From Candidatus Gastranaerophilales bacterium (GTDB lineage: Bacteria > Cyanobacteriota > Vampirovibrionia > Gastranaerophilales > Gastranaerophilaceae), in the NCBI GenBank assembly GCA_944323155.1, contig CALURL010000012.1, forward strand, positions 1-64,000: 64,000 nt of DNA, read 5' to 3'. A model generated the notes under the pieces. The model ran no database searches. It saw nothing but the letters and a program-made list of their open reading frames with translations, and was not told the DNA's origin. The position numbers were made by a program, and so were the translations under genes. Below, piece by piece: positions 29,587 to 44,091 of the stretch. Every line of letters starts with the position of its first letter. Position 1 is the stretch's first letter.

Positions 29587-31934
29587 ATGAATATTAAGAA
29601 ATATGAAGTTCGGGGGGGGGGCAACCTCAAGGCTTAAATAGCAAGGGTTTCGCGCCTTTATTAACTCCTTCCCAAATTAGTAAACGTTTCGGTTTTACGC
29701 TAGCTGAAATGATGGTTGTAATGCTCATAATGAGTATAATCATGGCCGCCTTTGCGCCTGTTGTTACAACTCGAAACAAAAGTGGCGACAATTCCGAGCG
29801 TTGGCGCTGGGCAAGAAACAGATCTGACATTTATTATGGTATAGCAGACACACAGGTAGCCATGATAGGTCAGAATGAACGTGAAGCGACGGATCCTTCA
29901 AGTAAATTATTAATCAGTACCATAGAAGACGGCCAAAATCATATATTGTTTAAACATGCAACAAGTGCCGGTGCCGGCACGATTTTAGGTCGTTTATACA
30001 TGGATGACAAAGGTAATTATGGTTTAAGTAATTCTCAATTAAAAGGCGAACAAAATACTGCTTTTGGCTATAATACTTTAACCAACATAAGCCCGAGTGC
30101 CACGAGTGATTCCGGCAATAAAAATACCGCTATCGGTTATGAAGCATTAAAAAGCAATACTAGTGGCTATTATAATACAGCCGTAGGCGAATTAGCTTTA
30201 ACTGACAACACCAGCGGTTGGCGAAATGTCGCTATTGGTAATAGTGCAATGCGCAACAATCTGACCGGAGAACAGAATGTAGGATTGGGTGCAAATGCTA
30301 TAGAACAAAATCTAAGTGGCAGTGATAACACTGCAGTGGGACAAAGTTCTCTTGCATTAAACAAGACCGGCAATAACAATACCGCTGTTGGGCAAGCATC
30401 CTTGTATAGTAATGACAGCGGCTACAACAATGTAGCTGTCGGTAAACATGCTTTATTCAAGAACACTACCGGCTATTATAATGTAGCAGTAGGTTTATCT
30501 GCCTTATCCTCAGTAACAGACGGAGTTAATAATACAGCAGTAGGCTATGAAGCCTTAGCAGCTAATACAGCGAGTACGAACACGGCCGTTGGCGAAAGTG
30601 CCTTAAAAACAACTACGAGCGGAGACGGAAACTCAGCTTTAGGTAATTCGGCCTTACGTTTGAATACAACAGGGACTTATAATACCGCTTTAGGAGTTGA
30701 TTCTTTTTACAGTAATACAACTGGCAGCTATAATATTGGTATTGGTCATCAATCCGGTTATTATAATACCACAGGTTCAAATAATATTGCAATCGGACAT
30801 CAGGCTTTGCGAGATAATACAACCAGCAGTGAAAATACTGCTATTGGTTACCATGCCTTAGCTCAGACGACGAGCAGTAATAACGTGGCAATTGGTAATT
30901 ACTCCTCTCGAGATAATGTAAGTGGCAGCAAGAATACCTCTGTAGGATATGACAGTTTGCGAGATAATACCGGCAGTAATAATGTGGCGATTGGTTTTCG
31001 CGCAAACATGTCTGATGATGGCAGTACCGTCTCTTTATATAATACAACTGCTGTTGGAAGTTATGCAAAGGCTCTAGATTATTATTCAACCGCATTAGGT
31101 TCTAATGCAAAAGCTACAGGAAGCTATTCAACTGCATTAGGTTATAATGCAACAGCTGCAGGTAAATTTAATGTAGCACTGGGTTATAATGCATGTCAAT
31201 TTACTAAGGGATCTAATAAGATATGTATTGGTGCCTTTGCTGGCCCTCGCTCAGATTCAAGTTTTGCCAGTGAGTCAGATGATGAAGAGCGTATATTTAT
31301 TGGTGGCAGACCAAGGTCATTAAACCCTCTTGTAAAAATTTCTAAGGACGACGGTAATGCTACACTAGAGATACATAATATTTCCGGTAAAAACTCAAAA
31401 GTTATAATTAATGGTGATTTAATAATTCGTGGAAATTTAGCTTTTATTCCGACAGATATTTATGATCAGATAAGAACAGTCGGCACAGGTGGTGCTTCCG
31501 GTGATTCTCAGTTTCAAGGAAGTGGCGGACTAGGCATGAATAATGCTGAATATTTAGATAAAAATCATTTTTATACTGATGGACGTGTTCCTTCTGACCG
31601 CCGTCTGAAATACGTTGGCAGTGAAAATAAAAACGGCTTGGCTAAAATCCGTGAACTAAAGATATTTAATTATACCTTCAAGAAGGATAGATCTAAAACT
31701 CCACATGTTGGTGTCATTGCTCAGGATTTGCAGAAAGTCTTCCCAGATGCTGTAACCAAAGGTGAAGACGGTTTCTTGAGAATTCGTTTGGAAGATATGT
31801 TCTACGCAGCAATCAATGCAATAAAGGAACTTGCAACTCGCATGGATAGAAATGAGCAAAAAATAAAACAACTAGAACAAGAAAATAAAGAGTTAAAAGC
31901 TCGTCTAGAGCGTTTAGAAAAAGCATTGAAATAA
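29587..31934 (+). CDS. Pilin-like surface protein with YadA-type head repeats and S74 C-terminus, out of frame at a G10 tract
   Basis: As sequenced, translation from the ATG at 29587 (AGGAG site) reaches a stop at 29635 after ten G residues (29612-29621). With 11 or 8 G the frame runs on for about 782 residues. The joined leader ends SKRFG and is followed by FTLAEMMVVMLIM, a perfect class III prepilin cleavage site (G36/F37, Glu at +5). Then come about 30 short head repeats of the YadA/Hia kind (NTAVG, NNVAIG). The C-terminus is an intramolecular-chaperone-like domain (SDRRLKY, FNYTFKKD, HVGVIAQDLQKVFPDAV) and a coiled coil. It is probably exported by a type IV pilus-like system and trimeric. 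A 741-residue ORF from 29709 lacks the leader. Confidence 0.75.
29612..29621 (+). repeat. G10 homopolymer tract (candidate contingency tract)
   Basis: Ten consecutive G residues at codons 9-12 of the pilin-like gene, in an AT-rich genome. One inserted G or two lost G restore the reading frame. Confidence 0.8.
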
Positions 31935-41590: not shown

Positions 41591-43947
41591 TTACATTTTA
41601 AAGTCCGGGATAAATACCTGTGCATTTACATATAGGAATTTATTACCTTTCCAGGCTTGTTTTTTACCGTTGTATGTCTGGACGGCATCAGGGTTTGCCT
41701 GTTCAAATTGCGCTTTTGCTTTTTGAATATTTTCTTTTGTTGGGTCAATTCCTTGTTTGATTAATGCATTTTTAATTATTGCTGTATAGCCCATACCTTT
41801 TGGAACGGTGTAATTAGGTTTGTTTGTGTTATTTGTTGGTTTATCGTTATTTGCCTGTGCCTGCTGTCCGTTAGGCGGGGTAGTGTGTATGCCCTGTGAA
41901 GTGTTTGATTGACTGCTTTGTACCGGTTTGTTGTCTATTTGTGTTAAAGACAGGTGATACGCTGCTTTTTTGAAATCACTAATCGGCATTTCAAATGTAT
42001 CTTCTGGGCTCCATGGGTTTGAGAGGGTTACTGTTTTATCTGTGACTTTTAGTATGTTAAGCGCATGACCTCCGCCGCCAATTATTTTACCGTTTACTTC
42101 CTGACTTGAAACTTTCATGCCTGCTATTGCGGCATAGTTATCTACTTTGCCGTCTTTTGAATCTGTACGTAGTTTATTTAGAAGTTTATCTAAATTATCT
42201 CTTCTTCCGACTCCGTTTATGGATGTATACATTGCTTTTGCATTTACAGTATTATTTTCATCAGGTAAGTGCATGTTGAATTCAGAATCGACATAACAAG
42301 TAGGGGCATTCTTGTTATTTCCATTGAAAGATTCTGCTTGTTTGCCTGTAATTATAAATAATGCAGATTCTCCTTTGCCGCTGCTTAAATAGTCGCCTCT
42401 ATCAGTATAGGGTTCTAGACCCATATCAAGTCCTGCTATAAGGAGTGTATCTTTCTGTTTTATATTGTTATCTTTAATCGTATCCATTACTTCGCCTCTG
42501 TATTTTTCGTAGGCAAGTTCAAGGAGCAGAACATCTTTGTCTCCTGATGAGTACCTTTTACCTGCAAGTTTAGAGGCTTTTTCCAATTCTTCTGCTGTTA
42601 TTGTGTAATTTCCTGTCAGATAAACTTTATCTTCTGGAAGTTTATCAAGGTTTTTTCCGTCTTCTGTTGGAATTTTTGCTCCGCCTTCGCCGCTGATTAA
42701 GGTTTTGCGGGCTGTTGATACACCGGGGAAGGTAATTGTGTAAGATCCGTCATTGTTTTTCTTGACATTTTGCTGAAGAAGTTTTTCACCTGCTTCTGTC
42801 TCGCTTAAACTGTTTATTGCTGCAAGAAGGTAGCAGTCGCCTCTTCCTCCCTGATATGAGGTGTCAAAATGACCGTCGACTTTAGAGAAATCTTTTTTAT
42901 CAACAAGTTTTCCGTCTTTGTTGTATTCTTCGCGTCCTATTAAGATGCCGTTTTCATTAAATTGGTTTTTAATAACCTGTTTAATGGTTTTTCCGTCATT
43001 TTCATATGCTATTCTTTCAGAAGGCAGATAGCCAAGTCTGTTTTTGAGATTTGCCCCTTCGTAATGATCTTTATAAATGGCTCCTCTTCTGTAATAAGTT
43101 TTGTCCAGCGTTTTTAGAGTTTTGCCGTCTGCTTCGTAGGTTTGTATTGTCTGAGATTTTTTTCCTGCCTTGTCAATTTCATTTTTAGTTGCTTTAGAAA
43201 GTTTTCCATTTACATATTCATTTTTCTGATTCATAATAGTTTTGCCTGATGAATCTTTTTGTTCTGAACTCCTTGTTATGAGTTCATTATTTTCATTGTA
43301 TTCAAGTTTTTGAACTATTGTTGAGGTAATTTTGCCTTTAGTATCTTGTAACGTCTGGTTAATTATTGATGGTTTTTTATTTTCGCCGTAGGTGTAATCA
43401 TTTGTTAATGTTCCTGTGGCATTCTGTCTAACCATTTTTTCAAGCAGATGTCCTTTACCGAAGGTGTATGTTTGTTTTATTTCTTTACCGTCTTTATCTT
43501 TTCCGATTACTACTCTTGTTCCTGAACCGTCTGCATTAAAACTGTTTGTAATAGTTTCTCCGTTTTCTGTTGTTGTAGTCGTTTGAGAAGAACCGGTTGC
43601 TGCTCTTTGAACAATACTTTGAAACTGTTCAACAATTTTATCTGCGTTTTTTGACTGCGGGGTAAGACCAAAAATTTGCAAAAGTTCATTTTTATCAAGA
43701 ACTTTGTCTTTACCGGCATAGTCATTTAATACTTTTTTTAGTGTAACAATTTCTTTTTCGTCAATTGTACCGTCTTTTTTTGAATCGAAAAAAGAAAGAA
43801 AATCTTTAATATCATCTGTTACTGTTAAACCAGCCTGAAATACGCTCAGTGTAAGCTTTTTGCCTGTCGGGGGGGGGGTAATTCTTTTCCCAGCTCAATA
43901 GTTTTTTTGTCTAACCTTGTACCTAACATGTTAATGTCTTTTACCAT
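41591..43947 (-). CDS. EF-hand/calpain-like cysteine protease with LysM-like tail, out of frame at a G10 tract
   Basis: The true start is likely ATG 43947 (AAAGGAG site). On the minus strand a C10 run (43869-43878) throws the frame out at codon 24, and 11 or 8 would restore about 785 residues. As given, only a 696-residue ORF from 43681 is open. Domains: EF-hand-like DSKKDGTIDEKE and a second at KDKVLDKNE, just after the tract; MORN/YD-like repeats; a calpain-type protease with Cys (GGRGDCYLLAA, codon 42833-42835), His (GGGGHALNI, 42065-42067) and Asn (LSNPWS, 42017-42019); a Gln/Asn/Pro-rich linker; a LysM-like C-terminus (YTVPKGMGYTAIIKNAL). No Sec signal is seen. Ca2+ activation is an inference. 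Confidence 0.7.
43869..43878 (-). repeat. G10/C10 homopolymer tract (candidate contingency tract)
   Basis: Ten G on the plus strand (ten C in the gene) at codons 24-27 of the calpain-like gene. One more base, or two fewer, restores the frame. It has the same length and the same phase defect as the tract at 29612-29621. Confidence 0.8.
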
Positions 43948-44091
43948 AAATACTCCTTTTCTTTGTTGTGTTACAAGTTCGTATTACGGTTAGAAATTTT
44001 TTTTCTTTAACGATATTCGATACAAGTTAAAATTTCGTTACATTAAATTTTTTATTAGACAAAATTTATTTAATATTCAACTGGGATACTT

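Follow-up and report, generated by a model that had tools for sequence, protein, structure and literature searches.

We propose that the calpain-like gene of the window (the whole 64,000-nucleotide stretch of Gastranaerophilales DNA analysed here) is probably a phase-variable, or contingency, gene that is switched by slipped-strand mispairing, and that the assembly shows it in the OFF state. Phase variation by a homopolymer had been suggested in an initial annotation made from the letters alone, and we found it supported by a tract that is conserved in a sister species, by purifying selection on both flanks of this tract, and by a genome-wide set of similar tracts.

The tract and the reading-frame register

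The window has a GC content of 33% and holds two G10 runs, at 29612-29621 and 43869-43878. Since only 0.0018 runs of at least ten G are expected per 64 kb, a chance run at the latter position was ruled out. This run reads as C10 on the coding strand of the calpain-like gene and begins 69 nt after the start codon ATG 43947. Translation from this ATG reads MVKDINMLGTRLDKKTIELGKELPPP and, at tract length 10, stops after 33 codons, out of register with the long frame that follows; the two are joined at length 11 (or 8). The long frame has 758 codons and reaches upstream beyond the TTG at 43681, where the mechanical open-reading-frame call begins. The gene thus has one of the marks of a poly-G/C translational contingency locus, namely a homopolymer of at least eight residues in the 5' coding region that sets the frame, and the assembled genome holds it in the OFF state (C10). 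The observations of the initial annotation were confirmed at this level: the homopolymer lies in the calpain-like gene, the first EF-hand-like loop was found between it and position 43681, and a single post-tract frame, running from 43867 to 41594, links the EF-hand-like stretch to the calpain domain. The features are collected in Table 1.

Table 1 Features of the calpain-like gene and of the second tract in the window.
Feature	Position	Strand	Evidence
Ribosome-binding-site-like AAAAGGAG	43953-43960	-	5 nt before ATG 43947; conserved in sister locus L157
23-codon 5' coding piece MVKDINMLGTRLDKKTIELGKEL ahead of the tract	43879-43947	-	dN/dS 0.18 against the sister species; resembles N-termini of EF-hand relatives (L158, L164-L170)
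C10 homopolymer on the coding strand (G10 on +), putative slipped-strand ON/OFF switch	43869-43878	-	Sequence; also C10, at the homologous base, in sister locus L157
Open frame of 758 codons downstream of the tract, with EF-hand-like pair, RHS/YD-like strips, C2-like protease and LysM-like tail	41594-43867	-
EF-hand loop 1 DSKKDGTIDEKE, with Lys as its third residue	43751-43786	-	PF13499 E=6e-4, below cut-off; comparison with relatives
Internal TTG start of the mechanical call	43679-43681	-	Without a good ribosome-binding site
RHS/YD-like repeat region	42908-43615	-	RHS_repeat in 9 of 18 family members
C2 (calpain-like) peptidase domain	41948-42895	-	PF00648 E=6e-4; residues invariant in 18 family members; family profile against PDB calpain-3
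Predicted catalytic set	Gln339 42851-42853; Cys345 42833-42835; His601 42065-42067; Asn617 42017-42019	-
LysM-like C-terminal tail	41594-41815	-	Conserved in family; L167 has a true LysM here; profile comparison weak
Second G10 tract, 25 nt after ATG 29588, in a prepilin-like/YadA-head/Peptidase_S74 gene (29709-31934)	29612-29621	+	Out of register

The encoded protein

From comparisons of profiles and residues, we judge the protein to be a divergent C2 (calpain-like) homologue and not a confirmed calpain. The Peptidase_C2 profile (PF00648) scored 19.4 bits on the window protein and so missed its curated cut-off of 23.8 bits, whereas a profile of the domain family matched PDB calpain-3 (E=4e-4), with the Cys segment aligned and the segment ending in HAYS...NPW aligned separately. 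The C2 profile check put forward in the initial annotation thus came out borderline, and its reading of Cys, His and Asn was borne out: all three residues, together with Gln339, are invariant in the 18 aligned family members (18 of 18 for Gln339, Cys345, His601 and Asn617). Across the bacterial family, a C2 match with E<=0.001 was obtained in 19 of 60 genomes and exceeded the cut-off in 7 of the 60.

Like the bacterial C2 peptidases surveyed by Rawlings in 2015 (PMC4631099), the window protein has the Gln/Cys/His/Asn set in QGxxGDC, GHA and NPW contexts. It differs from them in its sub-cut-off Pfam score and in the homopolymer within its 5' coding region, and its family differs in carrying an EF-hand-like pair at the N-terminus, followed by RHS-like strips and by a tail that is LysM-like. 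As that survey found an EF-hand domain in no bacterial calpain homologue (PMC4631099), the window family appears, on domain comparison and with loops that are weak, to be an exception. A 2022 survey of cyanobacterial calpains does not name Gastranaerophilales in its main text (PMC9380684).

The EF-hand_7 profile scored 20.5 bits on the window protein against a cut-off of 30. Judged as 12-residue loops with calcium ligands at positions 1, 3, 5 and 12, loop 1 has a Lys in place of the expected ligand at position 3 and loop 2 is degenerate, so that the proposed calcium regulation is weak for this protein, although the loop 1 of several relatives (for example, L158, L167, L169 and L170) follows the canonical pattern. 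The same EF-hand module, with the canonical loop DTDKDGKLDENE and no tract, stands at the N-terminus of a large protein of the same genome (L150, 1-1638; open frame of 1427 aa). This is the one other EF-module protein found in the genome, and the idea that switches control a whole family of EF-module paralogues across the genome was rejected.

The suggestion of a wall-binding tail fared in a similar way. No Pfam match to LysM was obtained in the window protein, and hhalign gave its tail a probability of 5.8% against the LysM of L167; yet that relative, one of the 18 family members, has a true LysM at its C-terminus (1.2e-8). A profile search likewise returned no RHS_repeat match in the window protein itself, whereas 9 of the 18 family members match.

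The RHS-like strips and the cysteine protease fold, together with the presence of more than one diverged paralogue in the genomes of some relatives (several in each), would also suit an effector-like module aimed at other cells in place of an envelope protease. We regard this function as conceivable and rather unlikely. The gene is flanked by a HIT-family gene on one side and a spermidine-synthase-like gene on the other, a neighbourhood also read in L151 of genome G012, and no immunity-like gene is adjacent in the window or at this syntenic locus; nor was a secretion signal recognised by eye in the window protein.

A genome-wide set of poly-G/C tracts

The tract of the calpain-like gene is one of about 90 in its genome, and most of the others lie in the leaders of prepilin-like genes, a setting missed by the initial annotation. 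In the 1.79-Mb Gastranaerophilales genome that contains the window (G000), we counted 91 runs of at least nine G on both strands, against 0.3 expected. Among the 90 tracts that were read, the length was 10 in 73, 11 in 11, 9 in three, 12 in two and 14 in one. The start codon of a prepilin-like gene (motif FTLAEVLITLG... in the post-tract frame) precedes 71 of these 90, usually with the ATG 27 or 30 nt upstream of the tract. With ON and OFF called from assembly consensus sequences and from an ATG picked for its position with the help of a simple rule on the ribosome-binding site, 55 of the 59 prepilin-type G10 tracts were OFF, one was ON and three were ambiguous, and eight of the nine prepilin-type G11 tracts were ON. 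Loss of MutS was rejected as the cause of the tracts because MutS1 is present in this genome.

Most prepilin tracts of the genome (within loci L003-L119) have a common leader cassette, ATGAAAAA...CAC-G10-CACAGGC..., ahead of genes that are otherwise different, which suggests that the cassette may have spread by duplication or gene conversion. In a second, smaller group of about ten mostly prepilin-like genes (L008, L025, L072, L081, L098, L108, L115 and L117), the tract reads as C10 or C11 in the coding direction and lies 28-29 nt downstream of the ATG; these genes, too, are OFF at 10 and ON at 11. The gene at 29588-31934, which holds the second tract of the window, combines a prepilin leader with YadA-head repeats and with the intramolecular chaperone domain Peptidase_S74, as in a tail-fibre-like pilin; the flanks of its tract recur at two places in the genome (contigs C10 and C17) with G11 and G10, and contig C17 ends at the tract. 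Some tracts lie in register (ON) within long frames (L101 2948, L063 502, L093 3005 and L073 2980), in genes named by eye as Mur-ligase-like, nucleotidyltransferase plus kinase-like and, twice, glycosyltransferase-like. A tract within a Mur-ligase-like gene is odd.

Related genomes hold comparable sets. A genome of the same genus (G001) has 30 tracts with lengths from 9 to 12 and the same register rule, and the sister genome G083 has 116, the highest count among the related genomes. In another genus (G011, 115 tracts), the mode of the 29 tracts read is G13, which is OFF, and G12 is mostly ON; the commonest state is thus OFF in both genera, despite their different modal and ON lengths. Length polymorphism was found among related genomes and paralogues of the set: an orthologous prepilin-like pair with 88-90% identity is G10 and OFF in G083 (L285) and G11 and ON in G000 (L083), and paralogues with near-identical flanks differ as G10 and G12, the calpain-like gene itself being C10 in both species.

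These tracts bear on a different account, in which the gene stays unchanged and programmed slippage, by RNA polymerase or as a -1 ribosomal frameshift on C10, yields a small constant fraction of full-length protein. Mechanically, slippage of either kind is plausible at a run of C or G, and it would fit the occurrence of exactly C10 in two species, of G10 in most tracts and of an offset that is nearly always +1. However, the register is not tied to the length, G11 tracts being ON and uncompensated; G011 would need the opposite shift; the tracts of G001 span G9 to G12; and the orthologues L083 and L285 differ by one base. We therefore consider programmed slippage unlikely.

The sister species, relatives and selection

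The sister genome is a Gastranaerophilales assembly whose kinship to the window genome we infer from sequence identity. Its locus L157 has the calpain-like gene at the same place, with blast pieces of 76-85% nucleotide identity, and a C10 tract at the homologous base that is likewise out of register. Between the two genomes, dN/dS was 0.18 for the pre-tract piece (23 codons), 0.33 for the EF part and 0.20 for the remaining frame (495 codons compared). These low values on both flanks indicate that both frames are kept as protein though out of register in both assemblies and, together with the C10 at the same base, that the tract is neither a chance run nor part of a long-dead gene. Both known alleles, in the two species, are C10 and OFF, with no ON allele among them. 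The sister copy has a frame-shifting deletion of ~400 bp and so may be decaying. Both points count against switching of this gene.

It could still be that the OFF state is not silent, with an internal start (ATG 43435 or TTG 43681) giving a protease that lacks the EF part and the tract toggling this N-terminal module alone. The EF part is naturally missing from syntenic, HIT-adjacent relatives of other genera, as this would predict; but neither internal start has a well-spaced ribosome-binding site before it, and purifying selection acts on the EF part and on the 5' piece as well, which makes an internal start quite unlikely. That the gene became a pseudogene recently, or that the assembler miscounted a base, is highly improbable: the gene is out of frame in both assemblies and the sister copy carries an extra deletion, but the same C10 stands in two separate genomes, dN/dS is about 0.2, and 91 tracts follow an orderly register pattern.

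The relatives with an EF-hand N-terminus (L158 and L164-L170) open with a short piece that resembles the 23 pre-tract codons (LDKQTIKFGE in L166, LDKKTIELGKE in the window protein), followed by LSVF or LSIF and the EF stretch. The tract is absent from relatives of other genera, both EF-hand relatives and the syntenic HIT-side ones, which likewise counts against switching, and conservation of the tract in all relatives was rejected. In L159, L161, L162, L171 and L177, the upstream sequence shows where the HIT gene ends, the EF hands and the tract are absent, and the frame is intact. The tract is thus probably an addition in the genus of the window genome or its near relatives. In another genome (G009; L034, 402-2877), two overlapping frames of 371 and 468 codons make up a split calpain-like gene, and no long homopolymer is present.

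Proposed mechanism and comparison with known systems

In the mechanism that we favour, replication slippage at the C10 run would add or remove a base, and a length of 11 would join the start codon to the 758-codon frame and give the full-length calpain-like protein. Tract length would accordingly vary within a population. Across the set of about 90 tracts, the commonest length is OFF and a rarer length ON, so that few cells would make the full-length protein. The prepilin-like surface proteins expressed in any one cell would then be few and drawn at random, with the calpain-like protease occasionally among the products. If the protein is an active protease, it may act on surface proteins, either those of the cell that makes it or those of neighbouring cells, and its tail may bind the wall. 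An action at the envelope or outside the cell would be the simplest one because the protease appears to be switched like pilus-like surface proteins and because of this tail. The interpretation offered in the initial annotation is to this extent partly supported.

Campylobacter, Helicobacter and Neisseria are the best-known cases of large-scale poly-G phase variation. The number of phase-variable genes in a Campylobacter strain is 5-81, and the commonest tracts are 9G and 10G (PMC6321876); deep sequencing of N. meningitidis confirmed variation for 115 genes (PMC5084427). The tract lengths of the window genome lie within the range that switches in Campylobacter (PMC6321876). As in Campylobacter (PMC6321876) and Neisseria (PMC5084427), G/C runs of ~8-14 with peaked lengths lie in 5' coding regions, surface genes are the targets, and there are dozens to about 100 loci per genome. 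The differences are that Gastranaerophilales belong to another phylum, that MutS1 is present in the window genome, and that most of the loci fall into one prepilin-like class with a common register and the commonest length OFF.

Our literature search, incomplete in coverage, found no report of phase variation in Gastranaerophilales. We hold it evenly balanced whether these bacteria have a default-OFF slipped-strand system of some 20-116 tracts per genome, through which every cell would display few prepilin-like surface proteins in a random combination, and whether this switch has come to control a surface protease of EF-hand/calpain-like type as well. Such a system would extend poly-G phase variation to hardly cultured, non-photosynthetic gut relatives of cyanobacteria, in a design with prepilin-like genes as the main target and the commonest tract length OFF. 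The combination of EF-hand-like and calpain-like parts in a bacterium would run against the 2015 statement that bacterial calpains have no EF hands. The predictions of tract-length switching can be directly tested with existing metagenome reads.

The distribution of the tracts in the order is patchy. Apart from G000, G001, G083 and G011, genomes of the family have from 0 to 91 tracts; 89-115 were counted in three genomes of its other genera (G005, G011 and G016) and 0-2 in several sister genera. Genomes of other families in the order have 0-6.
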